A stretch of 64,000 bases of DNA from Rhododendron vialii (lineage: Eukaryota; Streptophyta; Magnoliopsida; Ericales; Ericaceae), in contig NC_080565.1 of assembly GCF_030253575.1 (NCBI RefSeq), positions 14,534,501 through 14,598,500 on the forward strand, given 5' to 3'. Of this stretch, positions 45,783 through 63,683 are shown one piece after another (position 1 is the stretch's first letter; each line of letters starts with the position of its first letter). The position numbers and the translations under genes are program-made. Under the pieces are notes generated by a model. It was not told where the DNA came from, searched no databases, and saw nothing but the letters and a program-made list of their open reading frames with translations.

Positions 45783-47387
45783 TATTGCTACCATTATGTA
45801 TGTTTTCTTTTAGTTATGTTGATATATTATGTTAATTTCGCCCATGCATAATAAGAAAAGCTAATTACAAGACATTATAATTAAGGCAAAACCGTTGTTT
45901 AATGAAGGCAAAACATCAGTGTACAATCTTTAAATCGCTGAACCTGTTTTTACTTTGGAATGATGCCTTCTACCTAACGTGCATATTTGCTAATAACAAA
46001 TACTAGAGGCCGAGGCACACGCGATGTATGTGCAAGTCGAATTTTCATAACGTTTTTGTAAAAATGCTTCCCACTTATTCTCTAACAATATATTCAAGAT
46101 AATATGAGCAAGTAAAAGAAAGAGTTAGAGAGATAGAACCCGATTATAGTGGTTCGGCCCGGATTTGTCCACGGTTCGGCCTAGTCCACTTCTCCTCAAG
46201 CAACTACTTGAAGGTTCCACTAATCTTCAAAAAGATTACAAGTAGTAAGTCTTGCGTGTGCTTACAACAACCTTATCCCCTAGCTTTCCCGAGGAGCTAG
46301 TGCAACCGCAAGAGTTTTCTCCGAAAACCTCTCCAAAACAACAACACCCAAATTCAAACCCGAATTTGGTCTTCTAAGCTTTCAAGTGTTTGACTCAAAC
46401 ACTCGCTTAGGAATTACAAGTATGTGAAGAAAGTATGAAAATTATCGCTCACGACTTGTACAAAATTTCTCTCAAGAAAAATATGAAAGTGGAAGAACAA
46501 GGAGAATTTAGGCTTTGATCTTTGAATAATTTTCTCTTGGAATGATGTCGCTTGAATTGGTACTCATCAATGAGCTCTTGAAGCCTTATATAGCCATCCA
46601 ATCTCCTACTAGCCCGTTTGTAGAGTGATAGACCCGTTGGAAGTTAATTTAGGAAAAATATAGCCGTTGAGATTTTACTGATCTGCGGAAATCTGCATAA
46701 ATGTACTACCGGTCGTCCGGTCGGTCGACCGGGAGGTCGTCCGCTCTCTCAATCGGTCTGCCATCCAGTGAAGTCCGGTTGACAACCTCTTCTGTTCAGA
46801 CAGCCAGCCTGTCAGCCAGTTCGTCAACCTGTAGCTCAAAAATTCATCTGAAAAATTCCGTTAAAGCATGTATTGAGCTTACTAAGTTTTTGTAGATCTT
46901 AAACTTTGAATTCAAGAGACTTTAAGCAATTTTTACAAGGTTGAGAAAATTAGTCCGAAATAACTTGGTGATAACTATAAAAACATCATCAAAATAATTA
47001 ATCTGATTTTCCGACAATCATCAAAATAAATATACAATTGTAATACATATAATTTTCCAACAAATTAATATGCATACATTTTTCCAACAATTGCTACCAT
47101 TATGTATGTTTTCTTTTAGTTATGTTGATAGATTATGTTAATTTCGCCCATGCATAATAACAAAAGCTAATTACAAGACATGATAATTAAGGCAAAACCG
47201 TTGTTTAATGAAGGCAAAACATCAGTGTACAATCTTTAAATCGCTGAACCTGTTCTTACTTTGGAATGATGCCTTCTACCTAACGTTCGTATTTGCTAAT
47301 AACAAATACCAGAGGCCGAGGCACACGCATCGGATTTTCATAACGTTTTTGTAAAAATGCTTCCCACTTATTGTTTGATCAAATTTT
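45783..47387 (+). repeat. 300-bp direct repeat flanking an insertion
   Basis: Copies 45787-46078 and 47096-47387 are about 96 percent identical by eye (both contain TTAATTTCGCCCATGCATAA and GAATGATGCCTTCTACCTAA). The second copy runs into the Helitron C 3' end, while the first is cut at CCCACTTATT by the LTR-like insert. Confidence 0.85.
46085..47065 (-). mobile_element. LTR-like insertion, minus strand
   Basis: On the minus strand it begins TGTTGGAAAATTATATG (47063 downward), a copia-type LTR start. The other end, near 46085-46106, is not resolved. It contains GGTTCGGCCCGG (46153) and a CCGGTCGTCCGGTCGG repeat (46708-46745). No coding domain. The strand and class are tentative. Confidence 0.45.
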
Positions 47388-47443
47388 CACAAATGTTGTG
47401 AAAATCCGACTTGCACATGCATCGCGTGAGCCCCGGCCTCTAG

Positions 47444-48350
47444 TATAATAAAATATAAAGGGGGAGCACCAGTTTGGTCTCTCTCCTGTCATGTATTTTC
47501 CTTTCCTAAAGTATCCTCTAAAGAGAAAAAAAAACACAAAACAAAATAGTTAATTGTAGGGATATATTGGACATTTTAACACACAAAAAACTCCCAAAAC
47601 AGTTAACACACAAAAAAAAACTCCCAAAAACAGTTACCACCCCACTACATGTCCAGATATCCTCAAAACACCCCTTTTTTCTTCAACTGCTCTGTCCATT
47701 TAACAGTTCAACTTTACCGGTTAGTTTCATAGAAAAAAAATTGCCAAATAGCGCCTCACATGAGAAAGAGAGAGCCAAAGGGACCATTTTTGTGAAGAAG
47801 TCTGCCAAATGTCAAGAACTTTGAATCGGTTTGTACCTTCATTTACAACTCATAGCTCTTTACTGTACTCATTCATTTACCTACTTTTGGATTTATTATT
47901 TTCTATTTTTCTTCGTTCATTTTTTTGGCATGATCATGCAACTTGAAGATGTAGTTTTGTGGGCCATTTTTGAAGATGTAGTTTTGTTGCCATTTGATAA
48001 TTGGCCGGATGGATACATGCACGAATATATCTACCGTCACGCTCGTTCGATGCACGGGATTACAAAAACAAAAAAAATTGTTTCGTACTCCTTTTATCCA
48101 CATCTATATATGCTCATATATGCACAATTTGACTCACCAATCACTCTCTTCTCATGCCTCGACTGTGAGTGGGGAACCAAATTTGATAGAACAAATTGGT
48201 CTCCTTTAAAGCCCTCCTTTGAGACCGGGGCACATGCGATGCGTGTACAAATTGAATTTTCACATTTGTGAAAATTTGATCAAACAATAAGTGTGAAACA
48301 TTTTTAAAAAATATTGTGAAAATCCGAGATGCGTGTGCCCCGACTTCTAG
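47444..48350 (+). mobile_element. Helitron D, non-autonomous
   Basis: It starts directly after Helitron C (ATAATAAAATATAAAGGGGG) and ends GTGCCCCGACTTCTAG followed by T (48351). Its 5' 450 bp match Helitron C, and its 3' end matches the C terminus type. An inverted pair CGGGGCACATGC (48227) / GCGTGTGCCCCG (48331) precedes the CTAG. An open frame at 47831-48271 is probably incidental. Confidence 0.72.
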
Positions 48351-48352
48351 TA

Positions 48353-48353
48353 A

Positions 48354-48387
<34 letters not shown>

Positions 48388-48388: not shown

Positions 48389-48682
48389 CTCACGTTAAGC
48401 CCTAGTAGGCAGAGAAACGTGCAACCCAGATCTGTCAATGGATATCGTTATTAAGAATTTTTCATAAGTCCATTATAGCACTTTTTAAACCCTATAAGTC
48501 CATTTCTAAATTCTATAACCCCTTAAGTCCATTAACCTCTTAGTAAGGATATAATAACCCTGATTGGACTAATATACCCTTATTTTATAAAAAAAATTTG
48601 CCCCGTTTTTTCATCAATTCAAAAACATTCAGTTCAAAATTCTCCATATCCCGAATAAAACTCCCAAATCACTACAAAACCC

Positions 48683-48737
48683 CTCCCCCCTTCCCCCTTC
48701 CCCCCCCCCCTTCCCCCCCCCCCCCCCTCCCCCCCTT
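48683..48737 (+). repeat. C-rich homopolymer block
   Basis: Runs of C interrupted by TT, almost purely C at 48703-48737. Confidence 0.9.
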
Positions 48738-49150
48738 TCAGAAGGAAGAAACTGGACGATTCCTGTAAAATACTCAAAACACCTAGACGGTTTGTGAAGA
48801 TCAGTGGATCGCCGTCGGCCTTCTTCGTTAACCGATCGATGTCGGACTTCTTCGTTCACCGACGGTCTTGCTTCTCCGATCGTTGCCGTTCGTCGCCCTA
48901 GTTCGTCGGACCTTCTTTGTAGTTCGTCTCCGTTCGTCGCCCGTTCTTCATCCGTTTTATTCTGGTGCATGTGGTCGTTCCTCACTCGTTCATCGGACAT
49001 TAACGGTATATATTCTCCTTTTCCGATTTCGTTTGATTCATCTCCGTCTTTCTGCATAGACGGTCGCCGTCGAAATCCTTCGGTTCATCCCCATTGCCTT
49101 GCTACGATCCATTCGGTGTGTTTCTTAGAAAACCAAAAGTGAACTATGGG

Positions 49151-50560
49151 TATATATGGTTATATATATATTTGCTAGGTTGGTGTTTGGTAAAGCTAGG
49201 GATTCAATTGTTAGTATATATATGGTTATATTAATGACGGTTATATATGGTTATATCAATCTCTGATCTAGTATGGTATGGTTGAATTGAGTTAGAGATT
49301 CGATTGATAGTATATATATGGTTATATCAATGATTTTTTTACTTTTGATATGCCGAGTAGCATAGGTTTGCATTGGACTGCTGTTTATTATAGATCATTT
49401 GTGTTGACTTTCAAGAGATGTTCATACTCTAAACTGATGTTGTTTAGTTCATATGGTTGCGGAAAATGTTTGCAAGTTTGTTTTGAATCGTTCTTCTCCG
49501 TTTGTCGCCCTAATTTCAGGGTCTCAAAATCAGACTTTGCTGACAGACTTCTCCATCAGATCCTACGACGCAATCGATACACTTGGTATGTTTATCTTTG
49601 TATATATGGTTATATGAATGGTTTGGGTATTTTAAGTTCGGGTTTTGTATATATATTGTTATATCATAAATTAGATTTCTTTAAGTTCAGAGTTTGATGA
49701 TCTCTTTTGAGGGTTTTTTATGAATGGTTTATATGTATGTTTATGTGTATGTTTGAGCAGTCCAGCATATATGGTTATATATCTGGTTTGAGCAGTCATA
49801 TGTTCTTAGTTCTTGAGCAGTCATATGTTCTTAGTTCTTGTGCAATCTATACCATCAATCCTATCAAATGGTTAATGGTTACATGTTTTTGTTTTTCTTT
49901 TCGTATATATTGGTTATATAACTGGTCTGGCTATGATAATTTAGTGTTTTACTTGCGAGTATATATGGTTATATCAATATATGAGCAGTCCAGTTTATGA
50001 TTCTCTTAGTATATATGGTTATATAATTGGGTTGGCCAAGTTATCAATTGAGGTAGAGTGTACTTATAAGTTTTTTCCCAACTTAGGAGATAAACCGGAA
50101 TTTCCCTCCAGTATCTCTCTAGAAAATTGATATCATGTCCCCTAAAAATGTCATGTTTAAATCCCCCTAGTATTTTGAATTTTAGACAAAACTCTTGTAT
50201 ACGTTATACAATTGAAAGCTTACTGCTGGATGTTCAATTTTTTGTTATCTAGAGCAGTCCAGTTTATGTTTCTTTTCGTATTTATGGTTATATATATGGT
50301 TTGGCCAAGCTATGTTAGGGTTTCGAGTGCGAGTATATAAGATTGTATCAATGTTGCCTATATATTCGGATCAACTAGGCCGATGCGCGGACCATTTCAA
50401 TAATATAATTTAATTCGTCTTATAGATATAACCCAATTCAACGAAAACACGTTTTCCCTCTGTACATGAGATATATATGGTTATATATCCTATAATGTAT
50501 ACTATATCGGGCCATCATTCATTACATATATGGTTACATGTGATTTTGCTGGTATAGTGT
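49151..50560 (+). repeat. Left subterminal repeats, TATATATGGTTATAT
   Basis: About twelve copies of (G)TATATATGGTTATAT at irregular spacing (for example 49151, 49215, 49241, 49311, 49592, 49768, 49960, 50010, 50468). The inverse complement shares the half-site ATATAAC with the right-hand repeats. Candidate transposase-binding or replication sites (inference). Confidence 0.75.
49520..49585 (+). other. Possible 5' untranslated exon of the Ulp1 gene
   Basis: Acceptor TAATTTCAG before 49520 and donor CTTG|GTATGT after 49585. The sequence GGTCTCAAAATCAGACTTTG resembles 52587-52606 inside the Ulp1 gene (RVPKSDFADRL). A next acceptor (ATGTGCAG) lies at 50679. Confidence 0.35.
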
Positions 50561-50681
50561 ATAATGAGACGTATGACATTTAGGTTATATAACGTTTATG
50601 TTTACATTTAACCACTGATTATCATAAACGTATAAAGCTGTATATTTCCATATGTTAATTTTGTTCATTGTATGTGCAGCA

Positions 50682-53600
50682 ATGACTAAACCAGAAATCA
50701 CAGGGAAAGAGTTGGTACCTGTGGCAAATGCTCAACCATTAGCAATGATTGACCATCAAAAACAGATGAGGCAGAAGAAATCACCAAGGAAACGGACAGT
50801 AGACCCAACTGTCATAAATATTGAAGACAGTGAGGAAAAGTCCAAGGTCGTCAAGTCTGCCTCACCCACCCCCCGGAAAAAAGTGGACGGAAAAAAGAGT
50901 AAAGGACTAGTAGTTGATGATGAAACACCAACTGTACAGAAATCACCTACCCCAACTAAAAAGGTGATGCCGACAAGAATCAAGTTCACAGACCATGGTA
51001 AAAAGCCAGAGACTGAAAATGTTTATGAGAGAAAGAGGAAAAGGGCAAAAAGGGAAGATGAAGGAGTTATAAATCTGCAATCCCTGACAAAGAGAGTGAC
51101 ACGTTCTTCTGAGGCAGTGCATAAATTGAAAAGGGGTAAGGATGGTGAAGAAAAAAAGATCGACACAAAGAAGAAAGAAAAAAAACCACCGCCAAAAGAA
51201 AGGGAGAACAAAGGATTTAAAAGGAAAACAAGGTCTCAAATCCCCAAGGACGGATGTTTGAACAGAAAATCAAAGGTGAACAAAAAGGAAAAGGGGGAAG
51301 AAGAAGAAGATGAGTGGGATGAAGAAGAAGAAGATGAGTGGGATGAAGAAGAGAGGGATGAAGAAGAAAAGGGAAAGGGGAAGAAAGGGCATAAAAGTGA
51401 AGGGTTCAAGGGCAAACGAAAACAAGAAAAAGTAGAACCTGGGATGTCTAATAATCCCCGGAATGTAAAGAGACATATTCAGTACAGGTAAGGACACATG
51501 AATATATGTATATATGATTGTATTGATATAATATTATATATGTTATACTGACTTGTGACAGGATATATATGATGTTATTAACTTGCTAGTTTGATACTTG
51601 AATTATATTGACTTGCTAGTTTGATACAGTAATATGAACACGTGAAAACAATCTGTTGATCAATACATTACTTCTAAAGATTTATACAGAGCACGTGTGG
51701 CTTAGCTGTTCTGAATACTATTCCTTTTTAGAAAGTTACAAGTAGTATTACATTATAATTATATACGCCATGCATGACATAACCCTAGAAACCGATGAAT
51801 CGAAAACTTGTCCAAATTTAGTCCCACTTTTGTTCTATATATATGTCACTGTCAGACCAATCCCATACAAACAGAGAATTTACTAACGACCTAGCTAGCT
51901 AGGTACATCTTCCAATACATAACAATGATGGATGCAGTGGATTCAGCTTATCCCAATCATGCCATATTCACCGAGAATGAAAAATACCGTTGATCGATCT
52001 CTCGGCCGAATCGAACCTTTTAACTAAGATAAGGGATGCATGCAAGGAATGGGGATAGTTATTCTGTATCATTTTAATTGTATTGCACTATCATATTAAT
52101 GTTAGATGTTCCATATTAACATTGATATAATGTTATATATGATATATGTAATTGTGAAAGGTTATGTATAATGTTATTACCTGAATTATATATGGTTATA
52201 TATGGTACTCTGAATCATTTCCAGTGTATTGCTTATATATATGATATTCTGTACCAATGTGTGTATTTTATGCAGGTCAACTTTAAATACTGTGGTAAAA
52301 CTGATAAGGAGTATTCCTACCGGGGAATTCACACCACTTCAAATTCAGGAGATCAATAAAACACCATTTGCGAAAATTTTGTTGGGTATTGTAGAAGCAA
52401 AAATGGATGAGGCCTACGTAAGGAAGAGCGATACCGACGTTTTAAAGTTGGTAAAACAATATGAGGGTACAAGTGGGAGATTCAAATTGGGTGGCAAGTC
52501 TGTGAAAATAACGGCGAAAGAGGTTACACTCATATTTGGAATACAATCTGGTCCTAAAAGGATTGTACTAAATCCAACTCCAAGGGTCCCAAAATCAGAC
52601 TTCGCTGATCGTCTTTGCCCGGGTCCCAAAGGCCAAAGGATATTAACAATTCCGTTACTAAGGGAATTCTTTACCAAGGCTGTTAAAGGCACCACTTTGC
52701 AGGATGCGAATGATTTGGCGCGTGTCCTATGCCTTTTGTTAATAGGGACATTATTTTTTGCAAACACACAAGCCAGAGTGAGTTGGGGTTACTTGGAGTT
52801 CGTGGAATATTTGGATAATAGCACCTCCTACGATTGGGCAACCTTCATCACCGAAGACGTTATCCAAGAATTGAACAAAAGGGCTTCTTTGAAACCAACA
52901 AAAGTCGGAGGATGCGTAATGGGACTTATGGTAACAATGACTTCCCCATTTATAATGTTTATAGGTTTTCCAATTTTTTTGTTCGTTTAAAACTAATTTG
53001 TGCCTTCTTTTAAAAACAGTATTGGCTTTGTGAGCACGTGTCTTTAATTAATCAGGGAGATCCACAAATCATACCAAGGTTCATCAAGTGGAGGATTGGT
53101 GACCTAACAAATGCACTGCGTACAAACAACTTGGACTCTCTTGATCCGCAGTTGGTAAGCATTGTATAGAGTTATATGTTTTTTTATGAACGTATTTATA
53201 AACAGTTTTGGTGCTAGATGTGATTTATAAACATCATTGGTTATTGTCTATTTTTAAAGGTATTATCTTCAGAATTGGAGCCAAGCGACGCGGAGGAAGA
53301 ATTGTATAGGTTTTCCCTAGTCCCTGATGTCAAGACTGATGTCAAGGCTGCTAAGTTGAAGACGGCAGTTGACAAGTCGGGCGATGAGGTCGTGGAGGAT
53401 ACGAGTGATGAGGAAACAGAAAGTGAGCAGGATGAAGTGGTAGACCTACTAGGTATAATCAGAACCTTGACCGAAAATAATGCAGAAAAGGACCATATAA
53501 TTTCTGAACTTCGGAGGGAAAACAAGGAGAAATCTGACACAATAGTTGAACTTAGGAGGAGGATTACAAAGCATACACAAACCACAACACCTGGTTTAGG

Positions 53601-55877
53601 ATTCGAAGGCATCTCCGCACAATTTGATAAAGACCACCTAGAGCACGAAAATGTTACGTTACATACGGAGATAGGCGGCATGCTCATAGAGAAAGACATT
53701 GTTGAAGAAAAACTTGAAGTGGCCGGAGATATAATTGATGATTTTGTGACACATGCTGTAACACAAACGTACAAGGTAAGTCAAATATATTAGGATATAT
53801 ATGCATGCTATTTAATAATCCTATTTAGGTAATAAGTTATCAATTATAAGTGTCGTCTTTTTTTTTTAAAAACAGCCAGTTGAAGATGTGGGCGAGAAGG
53901 AAACCAAGTCTAAAGAACAAGAAATAGAAAATGTGGAAGAAGAAGAAGAAGAAGAAGGGGGGATTGAATTTGTCCAGGATGAGGGTGGGCCAGAGTACAT
54001 AATGCTGCCAGATGCAGAAGTGGACAGTACGACTGTTGAAGCATACACGAGTATACTAGAATGCGACACACCGAAAGGGAAGAGGGGAAAAACGAAAGTA
54101 AAAGTGAAATCATCGTCGCTAACTAGAGGAGTGAAAAAAAAGTTCACCAGAGTGGAGAAGCGGTTAGACGATTATGTCTACAGTGATTTGCAAAAGGGGG
54201 CAAAGAATAAATTGAAACAAAAGTGGAATCCTAGTGCAGCACCGTTGATTCACTTGCTATCGAATACCGATGCGAAGCTATTGCAACAAATCGTTGACTG
54301 TTCTGACGCAGATCTCACGTAAGTAAATATACTACAATCATATAACCTCATATAACCTATTGCATGTTAGGATCTGCCGTGAAAGGGTACATTGTACTGT
54401 TTTGCGACTTGGTAGGGCAATTACATGTTACACTAGTGAAGATTTTTTGGTACCTTGTGATTCTGTGAAAGTGAAAGGGGAAAACTTCCTTCTGGCTTAT
54501 GACTTTTCATGTGTTGTTTTAAGGTTCATGGTTCATTTCCTTGGCCTTTTACTATGCCTCATCCTTTTTAGCTATAATGCATTTCATTACATTAACTGTT
54601 AACTGCTATTTGTTCATAGATGAAAAAACAGAAGAGTACATATTTCCACATTTTCTTATTTATGACCATTAATGCAATGATATAATGTCAAACATATGTG
54701 ATAACAGTTGCACTGTCTGGACCAACGATGTGACGAGAGAAGTTGTACCTCTAGAAGACATACTGAAACTATTACAAGGAGGGGACGTCTCAAACTGGGT
54801 ATGAAAATCCTATCTTATATCATGCATCAAAAACATATAAACAATTTGTGTACATATTGGTCGATTATATTCTTACCTAAATATGGAAAATAATGCAGAT
54901 GATCGACGGTCTAACTCGTATGCTAACGATCCAGCTGGATAATGATAAATACAACCACAGTAACGTTGCATATTTCCCATGCACCATCTGGGTAAAAAAC
55001 ATATATTTTACTCTTGTAAATGCCTGCATATTTAAGGTTATATATGACCATTTGTCTACTGTACTTACAAGATTTACCAATTCAACAGACTATACTGAAC
55101 ACCCCGAAAAGCGATATGAGAGCAGTTCTACTCGACAATAAGCTTGAACGTGTGTTTGAAAACGTCCGGAAAAATGGGACTAAATACTATCGTTACTTGG
55201 TATTCCCTATGAATGGCAATGGAGACAAATCAATGAAAATTACACCGTACCATTGGACAATTCTTTTCTTTGATGTTAGGAAAAAAAATTGGATGCACTA
55301 CAATTCGTTGAGAAAGAGAGACGGCAGAGATCCACTCCTGAAGGACGCCACCTTTGTGGTACGATTAATAATTCCATATATGCAAATACTCGAAAATCCA
55401 TTCACAAAAAATATCACCATCACTAATATTGTGCATTGTAAATGTAGAAAAAATATGTGGAGAATTACATGAAGGAGATGCATGCTGAGATGAAGAACCA
55501 AAGTGCAGGTACGGAAATACTCTTTGAAGAACAGAATTTTGATGCTCCAATCTTCTCACCTCAACATGCCCCACAACAAGAAAGTACATCGTAAGCTTCG
55601 AAACTCCATACAACTTCTACATACAACAGTTTGCAAAGAACTCCAAATCAACTTATCATGTTTATTTGCCACATAACTATGCAGGGTTGATTGTGGTGTT
55701 ATTGTGTGCATTCTCATGGAAGTATTGGCGCACCTTGAGCCAATCCCAAAAACATTGACAAAGACTGAAATTGACAAGTATAGAGCCGGTTTAGTATCTC
55801 GATTTTTGAACGATGAAGGTAAAAGCTGGACGATAAAGAAATGGGAAGCAAGAAGGATGGGGAAGGAGTCGCAATGA
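50682..55877 (+). CDS. Ulp1 (C48) protease-domain protein of MULE, 10 exons
   Basis: Exons: 50682-51487, 52276-52930, 53020-53154, 53260-53775, 53876-54318, 54708-54798, 54899-54991, 55089-55358, 55448-55590, 55685-55877. All have GT-AG borders and matching phases, giving 1114 residues and no internal stop. Residues 1-268 are Lys/Glu-rich, probably nuclear. About 270-530 form a plant-mobile-domain-like region (ITAKEVTLIFGIQSG, GCVMGLMYWLCEHV). About 580-660 is a coiled coil (IISELRRENKEKSDTIVELR), then an acidic stretch. The last 150 residues are Ulp1-like: PYHWTILFFD (His) and VDCGVIVC (Cys). Ulp1 enzymes cleave SUMO conjugates; the role in MULEs is unknown. The usual Asp position reads HYNSL, so Asn replaces Asp. 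The ATG 50682 is the first after the splice acceptor. Confidence 0.82.
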
Positions 55878-56844
55878 GCGTCCGTGCATTTTTGGTGTTT
55901 CCGATACATTATTTTTGGGTTTGGGATTTTATTTGGTTAAGGGGTCTGAACATTTTGATCGGATTTGACTTCGCCTATTAACTGTTAGTGATGGTCTGTT
56001 TTTTTTTTTTTTGATCCGCAGTGATGGTCTGTTTTAGATGGTACATTTTGTAAATGAAGGAATTAATATGTTAATGTAATTGGGAATGTTGGCAGGCTGT
56101 TACATTTGGAAATTAAAATGTATAGTTCATCACAATATATTCGATCTACCTACATGGTCATATTTACTTATGGACTCAAATACACGATAGGATGTTATAT
56201 TACAATGTTAAATGATTTCTTTTGGTTGTGCTGTGCTGTTTCCAATGTATAAAACATTATAACGTTATATATTCTTAACTGGACAAATGGTTATTGTTAA
56301 TGAATTCCAATATATAACGTTAAACCAAAACAACGAAAATCATTTTAGGTTTGCATCCTTAATTTTTCAAAAAAAAACAAATTACTGATGGTTATATATC
56401 AAAAAACTGTACAACATAACAAACATATATGGTCATATATTTGAGTATTTAATATGTAACATAAGGAAAAAATAATATATAATGTTATATAACGTTATAT
56501 AAGTTTAATAACGTTATATACAGTGGACCAGAAAAGGAGAATATGGAAATTTATATAACGTTATATAAATGTAATATGTTACACCGTACACAACTGATGT
56601 CTATAAAACAGCAGTGTATCTAAAAAGGAGAATATAGAATGTTATATAAGGTTATATAAAGCTAAAATGTCAAACTGTACACACCTCACGTCCACAAAAC
56701 AACAGAACTATTTATTTATCCATAATCCAAAAGAAACAATTTCACTATTTTCAGCACGAATAAAGAAAAACAAAACAACCCCCCAACTTTATAATATAGA
56801 TTCGTCCTAATCTCTCCTTTATTCTCATATTTGACCTCCTTGCC
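55878..56844. repeat. Convergent-gene gap with ATATAACGTTATAT palindromes
   Basis: Between the two stop codons. At 56255-56660 there are about eight ATATAACGTTATAT or one-mismatch palindromes (for example 56258, 56480, 56507, 56552, 56636). It must also hold both transcripts' 3' ends; no clear poly(A) signal was chosen. Confidence 0.7.
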
Positions 56845-59141
56845 TCATATATCACTTGGCTCTTTGCATGTTCTTCGGTTGTGCTTTGTAGCCTTGTGGC
56901 ACCTCCCACATTTATTTGGCCTGGTGTACGACTCTTCACCCCTTGAACGAATGCGTTTAACCTTGGGCCTATCTGCTGGCCGCCTATTCCGTGGAGGATT
57001 TATAACCCGGTCACCTTCTTTTGTAAAATCGGGAATGTCACTCTCTGCAACTGGATATATGGGTTCTTCATATGCACGCCGACACGCATCAACAAGGTAT
57101 AACGGATCCATGTGGTCCACCAAATTTCCTTCCCCTCCGCAAGCTTTAATAATAACCGTTGCAGCATGCCTACACATGAAACCGGTCGACTGCCACTTAC
57201 CACAAGAGCACGTCCTTTCCTCAACAGATACTACCTTCGGGGGAAGACAGCGCACCTCGTACAAACCAACCTTTGACATAATGATCCTCCATGACCTTCC
57301 TTTCTTAATAAAGCGAGCTAACTTCTTATCCATCTTCGGACAAATCACTGAATTCCATTTCATCGACTTTACTCTCCTATCTGCCATTTGCTTCATAATT
57401 TTCCGACGAAGCTCATCGACTAAATAAAATACAGGCATTTCCCGAGCTTTAAGAATCCAATTATTAAACGATTCCACAGCACTAGAACTCATCTCACCAT
57501 ACCGTTGACCTTCAAAATACGCGTTACTCTAATGCTCTTTGGGGACACTCGCAATAAAGGTCCTAGCTTTTTCTCCACCAAATTGGTAAAATTCTTCCTC
57601 AGCAGCTTTGTAAACCGACACCGATGAAGCATATGCACATTTGTTGAACAATTCAACGAGCCTATTCCGAAAACCTTTTCTAAACCGCCCAGGAAAGTGA
57701 TCCTTCAAGTTAAACTGTAGGTGATAAAGACAGTATGCATGATGACAACCGGGGAACATAACAGGAATATTGTTGACAAGACCTGCGTTACGATCAGTAA
57801 TAAATGTAATAGAACGTGTGGACAATATACTCCTCAAAAGGCCAAGAAACCAAGTCCAATTAGCATCATTTTCAGCGTCACAAATTGCAAAAGCTATAGG
57901 GAATAAACCTGCACATGAATGATAACATATTACGTTATATGCAAACTTATACCATGTGTAACTTCAAATAATAAAACATACAGTGTTATATATTCAAAAC
58001 TGTACAAATGAAATTTATTATATAAGGTCAAAACATAAACAACCAAGACAAACATACATTGATTTGCATCTTTCCCTGTTGCGGCAAGGAGTGTTCCTTT
58101 AAATCTACCTTTCAGATGGGTGGCATCAAGACACAAAAAAGGCCGACAATAGTTGAACCCCTTGATACAAGCGTCAAACGATACAAACAGCCGCGAAAAC
58201 TCCTTGGTTACAGGTTCAGATTCAAGCCTCAATACGCTACCCGGATTCGTAGCCCTTGCAGCTTCAACGTACCACCGAAGCCTATCGAATGAACCTTCAT
58301 AATCTCCATATAATTCCCCCCTTGCCTTCTCAACACCTAACCAAGCACTATGATAGCACAAATCAAGCCCATACTTGTCCGTGAACCAATCCAGCATGTC
58401 AATTGGAGAAGTCTTGGGTTTTTTCTCAATAATCCCAGCTATCTCATTCGCAACCAGACGGGATGACACGCGCTTATGCTTATTGGTTCGATATGTTGAA
58501 CCACAATTATGCTCATTATGACACTTTTTAATATGAAATACTCCATTGGTTCTATTTAAAATAGCATGGACATTCCATTCACACCCTATAATAACACAAA
58601 CAGCCGTCACCCTAAGTAAGTCATTTTTTACGAAACGGTACATAAAGCCATTTTCAATCGCATATTTAGCCAGCACAGCCCTGAACTCCTTCACACCTAA
58701 GGGAAATTCTTGTCCAACACCCTCTATCAAATCAGCCCAATCTTCCGTCAAATACCTAGTCTCCGCATGTTTACAATATTTTTCCGCGGGGTCCATTCTA
58801 TCCACATATTCTAACTCATCATCAACAACTTCATCAACATCAGCTTCTTCATTACTGTTACTACCAGTAATTAACATGCTACTATGTTTATTTTCATCAA
58901 CCTTCGCATTTATGCGATCACAATTAGTAAACAAGAAAAGCATGTTCTCAAAATCATATTCATTCTGAAGAGCACAATAACCATCCTCATAAGCATATGA
59001 AACAGAAAACCCACCAACAGACAGATTCTTCCACCTATTACGAATGCTGCTTAAAACATCATTCAACCTAGCACCACCCGATAACCTCACCGGAAGAATC
59101 TGCAACCCATACTTACAAATAAACATGATTGTTGAATCCAT
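56845..59141 (-). pseudogene. MuDR-type MULE transposase, one nonsense codon
   Basis: Exon 1 is 59141-58058 and exon 2 is 57908-56845; the intron has GT-AG borders on the minus strand and the join is in phase (DANQ | C, LFPIAFAI). Length would be 715 residues, typical. Order: PB1-like N-terminus (GGFSVSYAYEDGYCALQNEY), zinc-type DNA-binding region (CEWNVHA ... HIKKCHNEHNC), DDE core with Asp in LDATHL and Asp in FITDRNAGL, the C-X2-H of YCLYHL, Glu in AEEEFYQF, a SWIM zinc finger (CSCGKWQSTGFMCRHA) and a C-terminal zinc knuckle (CGRCHKATKHNRRTC). A single in-frame TAG at 57529-57531 falls after VPKEH where relatives have Trp. The 5' end has an acceptor TTGTGCAG just before the ATG. Confidence 0.87.
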
Positions 59142-59149
59142 GACAACTG

Positions 59150-59350
59150 CACAAAAAACACTGTTATATATCACAAACTGGACAACATTCCAAACATATA
59201 TAGTTATATATTTGCTTATGTCATGTGTAACTCTAGAATGAGAATATATAATGTTATATCACGATATACGAATACAATAACGTTATATACAACGTAACTC
59301 TGAACAGAGATATAACGTCATATAAGTATAATAACGTTATATACAATGTT
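59150..59350 (-). repeat. Right subterminal repeats, ATATAACGTTATAT type
   Basis: Five or six copies of (A)TAACGTTATATA or near variants (59196, 59247, 59279, 59312, 59332), upstream of the transposase start. They match the palindromes at 56255-56660. Confidence 0.7.
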
Positions 59351-59870
59351 AGATACGAAAATTATCCAGTCCAAACATGCAACTCTCATATGTACAATAA
59401 CAAATCCAAAAACAAAACAAAAAAATTAAAACAAATTCAAGATCAGCAGATGACTAGAGAGAGACGAGAGACGATATAGAGATAGATATACCCGATAGGT
59501 AGAGAGACGAAACTATAGCCTGGAATCCTTGGAGCAAGAAGAGATCGATCACCAACAACAGGATAATATTCGAGATCAACAGATGAGGAACAGGAGATGT
59601 TTGAGAGAACAATCGATCTCTTTCTCGCTGTCGCTCTATTCCCCCCGTAAATAGCGTTATTTCAAACGTACAAGGGATAATTGGGATAATGGGCTAAACG
59701 GATAACGGGATTCTTGGAAGGGTAAATATGTAATGGACTATTTCCCCTTTTAAAAGGAGTGGACTTGAATCCTTACCATATACTAATTAGTGGACTTAGT
59801 GGGTTAGAGATTTGATAAATGGACTTAGTGGGTTACAAACATGGTACAATGGACCCTAGGCCAATTTTTT

Positions 59871-60790
59871 ATATTAACTAAGCTTTGGTAGGTGGCGGGT
59901 GGATTTCAAGTCTGTCTTTTTCCGTTAGGTGCAACTATTGAATTTCTCATTCGTTACTTCCTTTTCTCCGTCTACCTCCAGCTCTATCCCTTTCTTATAT
60001 AGTACTAATAATCTACATAGTAGGAGTAGTATTTTCTTCACGTCTTATTTTTCAATGTCAATCATATAAAACAAGCATCTTTGTCACGGTCACAAAAACA
60101 TATATAATATAGAGGAGACACCAGCTGTCTTTTACATCCATCGCTACAAATTGGTTATTGCGCAGATATTGAGAGAGAGAGAGAGCGAGAGACAAAAAAA
60201 ATTGCTTCTTACAGCTGTTTAATAAGTGCTTGCATTATTGCATTTTGGCAATTTTTAGCTCTCTGTTGCCTTTGTTGACCTCGTCTTTCCAACTGGAACA
60301 ATTTTAGCGCAGACAAATTCGAAATACTGGTCTGGGGTTGGTTCCTTTCCTGCAAAAAATAGAAAGAAAGGTTTGTTTGTTTGCTCTCGGCTCTTGATTT
60401 CTTCCTCGGACTTATTCTTTCGCTGTGGCAAAGATCATTTGGGTTGTTGGGTTTCGTTCTGATACATCATCAAACAACTGGTGGGCTTTCCTGCAGTTCA
60501 ATTTTTGTTTCATTATTTGACAGCGGAATGTTCTCTTGTACTCATCTTCAATTACACTTCCGATTCTGATTTGATCTTTTCTGTACTGGGTAATCAGTGC
60601 TTTTTATTCTTTTACTCTTTTGTTGGGTTTTCCATTGCTGGGTTTTGGTCTGATTTGCATTTGAAGATCTTGGGGTTACTGTTGTATCTTCCCAGATTTT
60701 TATTCATCAAAATCTGTGATCATATAAGCTCTGAATTTTGGAGGGTGTAATAGTTTTTTCCCATCTGTTCGTCTTAAGAAAGTTGGGAGA
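59871..60790 (+). promoter_or_regulatory. Upstream region of the aldo-keto reductase gene
   Basis: Two TATA-like boxes, TATATAGT (59996) and TATATAATAT (60101), precede a short (GA)n at 60170. The remaining 600 bp would be a long leader, perhaps with an intron (a GTAATC donor-like site at 60589). No upstream coding exon is convincing. Confidence 0.35.
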
Positions 60791-63683
60791 ATGAAAGGAA
60801 AAGTTGGGACACAAGGGAGTTACTTTCTGCTGAACACAGGGCACAAAATCCCAGCCATAGGGCTTGGGACATGGCAGAGTGGGGGTGACCTCTGCGTCGA
60901 AGCCGTGAAAACGGCATTATCGGTTGGTTACCGTCACATAGATTGTTCACATCTTTATGGTAACGAGACTGAAGTAGGGGCAGCACTAGCTGAGGCTTTT
61001 AAAGGTTCTTTAAAGAGGGAGGATGTTTTCTTGACTTCTAAGCTTTTCTGCACTATGAATTCACTCAATAAGATGGAGAATTCTGTTAGGGTATCTCTTA
61101 AGAGCCTCGGAGTGTCGTACTTGGATCTGTATTTGATGCATTGGTCTGAGAGCTCAGCATTTGGGGATGCCACCGATCCTCCTTCCAAGTCAGGAAGTGA
61201 GTATCGGCAGTTCTTGAATCGGTTCAAGACTACATGGAAAGCAATGGAAGATTTGGTGACGCTGGGTCTAGTTCGAGCCATCGGGGTTAGCAATTTCAGC
61301 GTCCAGCAGATCAAGGAATTGCTTAAATTTGCAAAAATTGTACCGGCAGTCAATCAGGTAAACTCCTTGTTCTTGGATTTGGAAAATCGTCGTTAGTTAA
61401 CTTTGCATTGCAACTTTCTTCAAGTACTTATCTTATCACCTGCTCCACTATCAAGTGGGGTTATAGCTCTTTAGAAATTAGTAGGATTTTGATTTAGATG
61501 AGATTAACATTTGGCGTCTGAATTCTGAAATCATTGTATCAAAGGATGCTGGGATATTTATGGTCATTGGAGAAATATAAACTATCAAATGTGGATGTTG
61601 CCATCAGATTGGCCTTATTAGTGCTTTCTAAAGCCATTAAATATTGATGTTGTACTACCCCTGTGATACAAAACAAGGAAGAGTTGATCATCTTCACCAT
61701 TCCATTAGCTACCCATCAAAAGAAGACCTGATCACACGAGGCAAACCACTGTTGGATTCGACTGGATCTCGATTCCCTAAATCAGCGTTGCCACATTCAA
61801 CCTACTAATATTTTTAGGAAAGAGTCGCTTCAAGGGTTGTTGAGAAAATGAGAGTTGAGACATGTCAAGTGTCTAAATTCAGATCATACCTCATGTTTCC
61901 CTCCTCTTCTTCTAGTCAGTTCATTCGTTCCTAGGATGCATGTATGACATCATTCCTAGGGTGGCGCTTTTGTGTCAACTCGTGTCCAAACATTTCCGAA
62001 GAAAGGCATGCTAGTAATTGTTGGTTATCGTTACTCAAGAGTGGCAGAGGGGGTAAGATTGAAGGTAGACGTAGCCTGGTATTATTTGGCTCATTACTTT
62101 CACGTGTTGATTTTTTGAAGCTGATTCAAAGTGTCCTTTATGTGTCGCGTCCATGTCCCATTTCTTTATTGCTCCTCTTAGTTTTATTCCTCCATTTTTT
62201 TCTTGTGTCCACGGACGATTCACATTATTCTGTCCTAGGAAGAGCAACCCCCCAATTTAAAAGGGGGGGACTTGACTCACATCTGAGAGGGAGACGATGT
62301 TTCTTGTTCAGGCACAATTCATTTTGTGTCTTTTTTGTGTGTGGCAGATATCCAAGTTATACAGCTCAAAAAATTTATGAAAAAGAAGAAAACCAATAGG
62401 ATATAGTTTGTGCTACAATTTAACCAACATATATGGTGCCCCCGCATATTTTTTGTGCCATCTGCAAATTATTTTGTTGCACTTGCAGTGTATGATTCAA
62501 TGTGTCCTTGTGTGTCGTGTCCGTGTCCTGTTTCTTTATTGTTCCTCTTAGTTTCATTCCTCCATTTTTGTTGTGTGTCCAAGGACAACTCTCGTTTGAA
62601 TTATATAAGCTTTCTATTCCAGGAAGAGCAATTACCCAGTTTAGAAGGGGTTACTTGACTCACATCAGAGAGGGAGACGATGTTTCTTGTTCAGGCACAA
62701 CTCGTTTTAGTGTCTTTCTTTTTTTGTGGCAGAAATCCAAGATATTCAGCTCAAAAAATTATGAAAAGGGAAGAAAACCAATAGTATATAATTTGTGCTA
62801 CAATTTAACCTACATTTATTGTGACTTTACATATTTTTTGTGCCATCTGCAAATTTTGTTCCACTGGCAGTATATAGAAATCCCTGTTTCTTTGTTGATT
62901 TGTTCTTCTTTTTTAGGATTTGCACGGACTAGAAATGTTATGTTACAGTGTGTAATTTTGCATCATCATCCTTCTCGGTTCTTTGTCCAATAAAATGTTT
63001 GTTTTTGTTGTTTGCTTTTTTATTTAGGATTCATGTTGTGCCTCTGCATCCCTTAAAAGTTCATCATAATTTGTCTTTCTTTTCCACTTCTCCTCTGACT
63101 AAAGTGAGATGCATGCTGCAGGGGTTTAAGGTTGTCACTAGGAACAACCATAAACCCAGAGGTCTCGTGTTCACAGTTAAACCCCCATTGGTAATGCCTG
63201 GACTTATCATATACCTGCGACATGTGGTTCAGTGTAGATATCTGGGTTTTACTTTGCAGTGTTGGGTCTGAAATGACCCTTGCTTGGAGGGCTTCCTCTT
63301 TAAGAAGATAGAAAAAAAAATGAGATGCACCATGCATACATAAGACGCTTATGTGATTTGTTTTTATTTTGTGAATTTTCAGCTATGGTGTTTTGATTCT
63401 TCTATGATCCATGTTCGGCTTTTACCAGGTAGAGTTGCATCCATTTTGGCGGCAAGATGAACTTGTCAAGTTCTGTCAATCAAAAGGTATCCATGTTTCT
63501 GCTCATACACCATTGGGAGTACCAACTTCCACTCCTGGACCTTCTGATAGCGGATCAGGTGGGGAAGATGAACCTGGAACTCCTCGCATATCTTTCAGGA
63601 GGTCGAGATCAGTACACGGCCCTATGTTGAAATTGTCAGTCGTTGCAGAAATAGCAGATAGGCATAAGAAGACTCCTGAACAG
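60791..63683 (+). CDS. Aldo-keto reductase, 5' two coding exons (partial)
   Basis: AKRs reduce aldehydes, ketones or sugar aldoses with NADPH in the cytosol. Exon 1 is 60791-61357 (189 codons), the intron 61358-63428, exon 2 63429-63683 (85 codons); the junction is phase 0 (PAVNQ | VELHPF). The next donor CAG|GTACAC follows and the gene leaves the window, so about 274 residues are seen. The (beta/alpha)8 barrel signatures are GYRHIDCSHLYGNE, LYLMHW and GLVRAIGVSNF. The catalytic tetrad is Asp51, Tyr56, Lys84 and His117, all present. An unusual Ser/Gly/Pro/Arg-rich insert (TSTPGPSDSGSGGEDEPG, then RRSRSVHG) lies where relatives have a short loop. The subfamily (plant AKR4-like) and substrate are not decided. 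ATG 60791 is the first and fits the family start. Confidence 0.85.
62120..62880 (+). repeat. Tandem duplication in the aldo-keto reductase intron
   Basis: Two diverged units (about 62120-62475 and 62490-62880; period 371-385 bp) share GAGAGGGAGACGATGTTTCT, TGTTCAGGCACAA and TTTTTTGTGCCATCTGCAAA. No coding function. Confidence 0.85.

Follow-up and report, generated by a model that had tools for sequence, protein, structure and literature searches.

The window analysed here, a stretch of 64,000 nucleotides of the Rhododendron vialii genome (C9:14534501-14598500), contains at 48454..59871 a Mutator-like element (MULE) with two convergent genes arranged tail to tail, namely a gene encoding an Ulp1 protease domain (the ULP gene) on the + strand and a transposase gene on the - strand. 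The element is a MULE by every feature tested, including the MuDR-type transposase domains and the target duplication of ~9 bp seen in its relatives, and, judging from these relatives, the window copy is a recently transposed member of an autonomous-type MuDR-like MULE family. The most informative feature, which does not appear in the original prediction made for this locus, is a set of arrays of the motif GTTATATA within the noncoding DNA of the element. Its parts are as follows:

48454..59871, whole MULE copy, delimited by alignment ends, by termini and target duplications in copies and by a left-end search
48454..48535, + strand, left terminal inverted repeat, imperfect, from a repeat search
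50682-51487, + strand, ULP exon 1, charged, fast-evolving, indel-rich N-terminal tail
51584..52059, secondary insertion of ~480 bp in ULP intron 1, from copy alignments
52276-52930, + strand, ULP exon 2, region resembling the plant mobile domain (PMD)
53020-53154, + strand, ULP exon 3, end of the PMD-like region
53260-53775, + strand, ULP exon 4, charged linker with a heptad-like stretch, by eye a putative coiled coil
53876-54318, + strand, ULP exon 5, acidic and basic linker
54708-54798, + strand, ULP exon 6, from the gene model
54899-54991, + strand, ULP exon 7, from the gene model
55089-55358, + strand, ULP exon 8, with His968 and Asn985 of the Ulp1 domain
55448-55590, + strand, ULP exon 9, with Gln1047
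55685-55877, + strand, ULP exon 10, with Cys1054 and the stop codon
56845..57908, - strand, transposase exon 2, with part of the MULE domain, the SWIM finger and the TAG at 57531-57529
58058..59141, - strand, transposase exon 1, with DBD_Tnp_Mut
59787..59871, - strand, right terminal inverted repeat, imperfect, from a repeat search

Alignments of other copies to the window copy begin at 48454 in 8 of 10 cases, the other 2 left ends lying beyond the stretch fetched, and reach their right limit at 59871-59876 in 9 of 10, with c1_42.0 stopping before the transposase. The family start corresponds to 48451 and reads GGG, 3 bases to the left of the window copy's 48454, and this GGG is absent from the window copy; in the left-end search, 38 of 39 other left ends begin at query base 4. 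Thus, the near-complete MULE of the original prediction stands, whereas its exact limits of 48458..59870 are corrected to 48454..59871. The terminal inverted repeats (TIRs) extend over 87 nt with 72% complementarity, the left arm pairing with 59787-59873, and since such repeats are imperfect throughout the MULE family, their divergence is not used for dating. Target duplications of at least 9 bp are perfect in 6 of the 8 copies with both ends (the window copy counted among the 8) and agree at 8 of 9 bases in 1 further copy. Inspection of the window copy's termini revealed no recognisable duplication, and a small deletion may have occurred at its left junction.

Gene structures and protein domains

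The ULP gene (50682-55877) comprises 10 exons that, joined in phase, give an open frame of 1114 codons, as had been predicted, and 9 of 9 introns are GT-AG. Exons 2, 3, 4, 6, 7, 8 and 9 are free of indels in all five of the less damaged divergent copies (c8_23.0, c12_14.2, c6_10.0, c9_35.2 and c13_22.5), to which they are 82-93% identical. Splicing is only predicted here and is backed by conservation, internal splice dinucleotides being canonical at 121 of 126 positions by our own count in 7 copies, with the damaged c11_18.4, c8_10.9 and c6_27.8 left out.

The sole domain above its Pfam cutoff in the ULP protein is Peptidase_C48 at residues 945-1085 (35.9 bits against a cutoff of 20.7, E 9e-9); a genome search with the C48 family returned 17 matches, and the window's own exon-split gene is not among them. 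PMD (PF10536) falls below cutoff in the window protein, with E 0.14 for the whole protein and 0.017 over exons 2-3. When exons 2-3 of 3 proteins were scanned, PMD was the top Pfam match, with E values of 1.8e-4, 7.4e-4 and 0.017 (best score 21.3 bits against a cutoff of 34.9), and exon 2 alone matched in 3 of 7 copies (best E 0.089), the exon 2 of the window copy giving no match. The region is best described as PMD-like rather than as PMD, and in this form the PMD-like region of the original prediction is retained, with sub-cutoff matches and none above the Pfam cutoff. Exon 1 is charged and contains repeats that differ in number between copies, as seen by eye; in addition, it holds 3 motifs of the S/T-P-x-K/R type, which binds AT-rich DNA, compared with 0 in the rest of the protein.

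In PDB sequence searches, an alignment of the C48 region matches SENP1 and SENP2 weakly (E 0.03-0.06), and neither the C48 region of the window copy by itself nor the exon-2 alignment gave a meaningful match. The alignment to SENP1 is weak (whole-sequence E 0.03, E 2.1 over the part aligned); in it His968, Gln1047 and Cys1054 correspond and Asn985 lies at the SENP1 Asp, at the positions of the catalytic His-Asp-Gln-Cys of SENP1. The His, Asn, Gln and Cys are identical in all 10 copies (of 11) in which the region is present, c8_10.9 being the one that has lost it; in place of the His-Asp-Gln-Cys set of C48, the Asp position is thus occupied by Asn985 in all ten. The likeness to SENP1 and SENP2 consists of His, Gln and Cys in the same order, whereas the ULP protein has Asn for Asp and 1 extra residue between Gln and Cys. 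Papain-type cysteine proteases have a Cys-His-Asn triad, and because this triad likewise uses Asn, enzymatic activity of the Ulp1 domain is plausible.

The transposase gene (59141-56845) has 2 exons and 715 codons with 1 in-frame nonsense codon, the TAG at 57531-57529, in line with the prediction. MULE (PF10551), DBD_Tnp_Mut (PF03108) and SWIM (PF04434) all score above their Pfam cutoffs in the transposase pieces scanned. Given the nonsense codon, the window copy now supplies at most a helper protein.

Outside the two genes, we note a long C-rich tract at ~48696-48732, upstream of the ULP gene. An inverted-repeat element of ~1.06 kb (47302-48357, arms of ~140 nt) lies ~100 bp to the left of the MULE. 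A + strand open frame (60728-61396), which presumably resembles an aldo-keto reductase as judged by its sequence motifs, lies <1 kb to its right.

Copies in the genome and selection on the genes

The genome searched comprises 532.6 Mb in 13 contigs, and in the DNA searches the best 40 candidates were scored for each query, out of 42 for ULP and 108 for the transposase. By our own count, there are at least ~31 places with an ULP match, apart from a few matches that are short and weak, and at least 27 transposase matches span the whole query. Ten copies were read besides the window copy. Seven copies (window, c3_24.2, c11_18.4, c8_23.0, c6_10.0, c9_35.2 and c13_22.5) have both genes enclosed by the same ends, and in the 6 other than the window copy the alignment to the window ends at the termini of the element, so that related full-length copies with the same ends are indeed found. 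At contig 3 29378105-29382367, the ULP match is opposite in orientation to the transposase match, relative to the arrangement in the window.

The nearest copy, c3_24.2 (contig 3, 24.2 Mb), differs from the window copy at 24 of 11,402 aligned sites, 3 of which are terminal bases, and by 5 indels, which corresponds to 99.8% identity. It represents a separate insertion, since no flank match to the window is present among the matches listed, and this second full-length insertion bears out the recent activity that had been suspected. At a rate of 7e-9 per site and year, the divergence would correspond to a time of the order of 0.1 million years. The secondary insertion at 51584..52059 is common, among the copies read, only to the window copy and c3_24.2, and is absent from the next nearest copy. 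One gene is damaged in each of the two, c3_24.2 having a transposase without a stop and an ULP gene with a changed intron-5 donor.

The copies were compared by exon-wise projection of the genes and, for 8 of 10 copies (c12_14.2 and c6_27.8 being left out), by pairwise alignment. Compared with the five less damaged divergent copies, the ratio of nonsynonymous to synonymous divergence (dN/dS) is 0.13-0.20 for ULP exons 2-3 (PMD-like), the most constrained part of the protein, and 0.21-0.27 for exons 6-10 (Ulp1), rising to 0.36-0.40 for exons 4-5 (linker) and 0.49-0.67 for exon 1, with 0.15-0.22 for the transposase. These values indicate that the ULP gene and the transposase are both under purifying selection, as the original prediction had suggested for the protease gene, where it is evident in the PMD-like and Ulp1 exons (0.13-0.27). 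The damaged c11_18.4, c8_10.9 and c6_27.8 have higher dN/dS in places, up to 1.11, the expected effect of frameshifts and poor alignment, and the transposase value obtained for c1_42.0 corresponds to no true match. The divergent copies carry damage of their own, with internal in-frame stops in the ULP gene of c12_14.2 (1), c8_23.0 (3) and c6_10.0 (1), the ends of the last exons not being counted, and a transposase stop in c12_14.2 and c9_35.2; in c8_23.0, one more stop lies close to the C-terminus. As a candidate for a fully intact copy, c13_22.5 was dropped on account of a non-canonical exon-5 acceptor at the projected border.

The ULP protein diverges about twice as much as the transposase (dN 0.088-0.098 compared with 0.037-0.044), and in the trees of both genes two subfamilies, the same in each and with full support, stand next to the group of the window copy.

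Arrays of GTTATATA in the noncoding DNA

The motif GTTATATA is present at 29 sites in the 5,452 bp of noncoding element DNA (secondary insertion excluded), compared with 1.33 expected from dinucleotide shuffles, and the highest count for any 8-mer over 100 such shuffles is 10. With the insertion counted (5,928 bp noncoding), the number is still 29, as against 0 in the coding DNA; the 52.6 kb of the window outside the element have 5. The arrays are:

49159..50593, 5' array ahead of the ULP coding region, with 10 copies of GTTATATA, many of them in the form ATATGGTTATATA
56264..56658, array in the stretch separating the two stop codons, with 11 copies of GTTATATA, many of them in the form AACGTTATATA
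59163..59343, array on the upstream side of the transposase, with 4 copies of GTTATATA

The motif stands mostly in two contexts, ATATGGTTATATA in the DNA preceding the ULP gene and AACGTTATATA in both the intergenic DNA and that preceding the transposase. Further sites lie in ULP intron 1 (2), ULP intron 7 (1) and the transposase intron (1), with 0 in the terminal repeats; 705 bp lie between the left end of the element and its first site, and 528 bp separate the last site from the right end.

This distribution recurs in each of the ten other copies, which have 20-34 noncoding sites, 0-1 in coding DNA and 0-1 in the flanks. The survival of individual window sites was followed in 8 of the 10 copies. 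In four divergent copies (noncoding identity 71-74%), the window sites are intact at 12 of 20, 8 of 18, 12 of 26 and 12 of 24 aligned places (44-60%), compared with 12-16% for matched 8-mers (p 7e-6 to 9e-4). The corresponding figures for closer copies are 15 of 23 versus 43% (c11_18.4) and 22 of 28 versus 51% (c8_10.9), and for the closest copies 19 of 23 versus 78% (c1_42.0) and 29 of 29 versus 98% (c3_24.2). The test leans towards the motif, because repeats help alignment.

Genome-wide motif counts are related here to the ULP and transposase matches listed (best 40 scored each). The pattern TATATATGGTTATAT is found 624 times versus 18 for the reversed control, and among 100 listed places 33 lie within 13 kb of an ULP or transposase match and 13 beside a lone left end. 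A motif-pair pattern occurs 156 times versus 0 in the control; contigs 1-3 have 36 listed pairs, 11 of them near an ULP or transposase match. A motif-triple pattern occurs 11 times versus 0, 10 of these at 8 places beside family transposase matches.

The motif is also found in members of the family with no gene match nearby. Left ends were scored for the best 40 of 309 candidates, and for 27 of them the ULP and transposase matches listed include none within 25 kb; on contigs 1-2, where the motif listing is complete, 6 of 6 such left ends carry the 5' motif. One short copy that was read (L054) combines the family left end with 17 motif sites in 2.3 kb, and at E 1e-3 none of the exons of the window copy matched it. 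Another short stretch with homology to the family end (L053, contig 3 15705800-15708199) contains a 29-bp tandem array of the motif, which may be viewed as motif multiplication by tandem repeat, in likeness to reported VANC targets.

Candidate function and comparison with known systems

In the VANDAL elements of Arabidopsis, the protein VANC binds short motifs arrayed in noncoding parts and causes loss of methylation (PMC5735166, PMC10398659), and anti-silencing by VANDALs that carry a KIU gene is reported with reference to Sasaki 2022 (PMC13317346). Because the element described here has the same anatomy as VANDALs, we propose an anti-silencing role, and lean towards reading it as an autonomous ULP-carrying MULE whose ULP gene probably encodes a VANC- or KIU-like anti-silencing factor. 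The N-terminal and PMD-like parts would bring the ULP protein to GTTATATA sites on family members, where it would remove repressive chromatin or DNA methylation; once silencing is lifted, the transposase gene would be expressed, and full-length as well as short copies could move. At the most speculative step, the Ulp1 domain may act as a cysteine (iso)peptidase, perhaps stripping SUMO or a similar tag off silencing proteins. A doubtful but more specific version would make the ULP protein a DNA-targeted deconjugating protease, PMD-like, motif-guided and equipped with an active Cys-His-Asn Ulp1 centre, that relieves host silencing proteins at GTTATATA arrays of SUMO or of a comparable tag and thereby frees the family together with its many short derivatives. 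The original prediction gave the protease no known role, which still holds for its enzyme activity, but publications describe anti-silencing by VANC, VANDALs that carry a KIU gene among them (PMC5735166, PMC13317346).

Other explanations account for parts of these observations. Nothing was found in favour of the ULP gene being a host gene placed beside a MULE by chance; the presence of both genes between shared termini in 7 copies read refutes this, and we give it practically no credence. A captured host deSUMOylase that travels as a passenger, without a role for the element, would fit the frequent capture of gene fragments by MULEs and the ULP capture reported for several transposon types (PMC2528002, PMC13317346), yet it appears improbable in view of the dN/dS of 0.13-0.27 in two blocks, the seven indel-free exons and the catalytic-site residues that do not vary between copies. 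Indeed, a passenger would be expected to decay like the noncoding parts, and in the same four divergent pairs as above noncoding identity is 71-74% compared with 88% for coding DNA. The Ulp1 domain might also be catalytically dead and serve only as a protein-binding module, as the alignment of Asn985 with the catalytic Asp of SENP1 could suggest; we regard this as unlikely, since His, Gln and Cys are kept together with the Asn in 10 of 10 copies and a Cys-His-Asn triad is known from papain-type proteases.

The GTTATATA arrays could instead be binding sites of the transposase or promoter elements, with the ULP protein acting elsewhere, for example by stabilising the transposase. Such a function would explain the array found ahead of the transposase and the persistence of arrays in short copies, which still need mobilisation, but the sites are missing from the terminal inverted repeats, with the nearest at 705 bp (left) and 528 bp (right) from the ends, and they occur in ULP introns 1 and 7, in the transposase intron and between the genes, like VANC targets (PMC5735166). 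We consider this explanation possible, though not likely.

The anti-silencing reading has to accommodate a number of observations that weigh against it. The window copy itself is without the terminal GGG, without a recognisable target duplication and has a nonsense codon in its transposase. Constraint is weak in ULP exon 1 (dN/dS 0.49-0.99 in 9 comparisons), and is not clearly visible, on few changes, against the two closest copies, c3_24.2 (0.82 over exons 2-10, 4 changes) and c1_42.0 (0.41 over exons 2-10, 0.86 in exons 6-10 with 13 changes). Of the families named in the original prediction, C48, MULE and SWIM are found above cutoff and PMD below, while DUF1985, like DUF287, has no match in the ULP protein in Pfam scans of the whole protein, exon 2 and exons 2-3; a genome scan for DUF1985 gave 23 matches, 0 of them above cutoff (best 150 of 382 candidates scored). 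Among the 100 listed TATATATGGTTATAT places, 24 of the 54 with neither a gene match nor a lone left end nearby also lack a nearby motif pair and a second site, the genome-wide counts are not independent because sites within one family share ancestry, and GTTATATA could serve promoter or transposase functions. Finally, synonymous divergence (dS) of the ULP gene exceeds that of the transposase 1.16- to 1.77-fold in 16 of 16 between-subfamily comparisons (p<0.05 in 12, uncorrected), with 1.39-1.77x for exons 2-10 in the 10 comparisons of the window copy and c3_24.2 with other subfamilies. Simple clonal descent does not predict this excess, and it is possible that the transposase module was exchanged or converted between copies.

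If the anti-silencing reading is correct, a plant genome other than that of Arabidopsis would offer both an intact candidate gene for anti-silencing and its candidate target motif, so that the reason for which transposons keep an Ulp1 protease would become directly testable. It would also suggest how short relatives that have the motif but lack the genes spread.

Among known systems, the ULP1-carrying MULEs (Kaonashi or KI-MULE elements of Arabidopsis with their KIU genes, and elements of melon, rice and grapevine) are described with the same combination of a mudrA-type transposase and an opposite Ulp1-domain gene (PMC2528002, PMC13317346, PMC6117577), the same multicopy state and a C48 domain that is kept. 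Kaonashi elements are by description non-TIR MULEs (PMC2528002), whereas the element here has 87-nt imperfect inverted repeats. Of the Kaonashi type originally assigned, the ULP gene reverse to mudrA therefore stands and the non-TIR character does not, and because imperfect terminal inverted repeats are present we do not apply the name in its strict sense. The verdict is borderline, since VANDAL ends are called degenerate (PMC10398659) and the 87-nt repeats may likewise be so called.

With VANDAL21/Hi and VANC6, the element shares a faster-evolving second gene with a variable, repeat-bearing region; VANC has such regions, and the transposase VANA is described as much more conserved (PMC5735166). 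A further shared feature is the restriction of short-motif arrays to noncoding DNA, introns among it, where VANC targets are also located (PMC5735166). The motifs themselves differ, the published VANDAL motifs being YAGTATTAY and AGTTGTCC/AC compared with GTTATATA here (PMC5735166, PMC10398659), as do the domains, with DUF1985/DUF287 in published VANC (PMC5735166) and a sub-cutoff PMD plus C48 here. VANC activity is published, and a meeting report of 2026 mentions unpublished structures of VANC with target DNA (PMC12859917). We do not file the present element as a VANDAL, because DUF1985 was not found in it and its likeness is one of sequence anatomy.

The weak PMD similarity of exons 2-3 recalls MAIN and MAIL1 and the PMDs captured by MULEs (PMC7156037, PMC5418596). 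MAIN and MAIL1 are host proteins with a standalone PMD that act in silencing, and the use of a captured PMD for anti-silencing by MULEs has been speculated upon (PMC5418596). The PMD fusions reported for MULEs are to transposases, in grasses and Amborella (PMC7156037, PMC5418596), and a PMD fused to a protease domain is mentioned in print (PMC7156037); the fusion of PMD-like and Ulp1 parts in a single open frame, which had been singled out as worth describing, has this precedent. The element is of a known kind, to which the present analysis adds a member with a candidate target motif.

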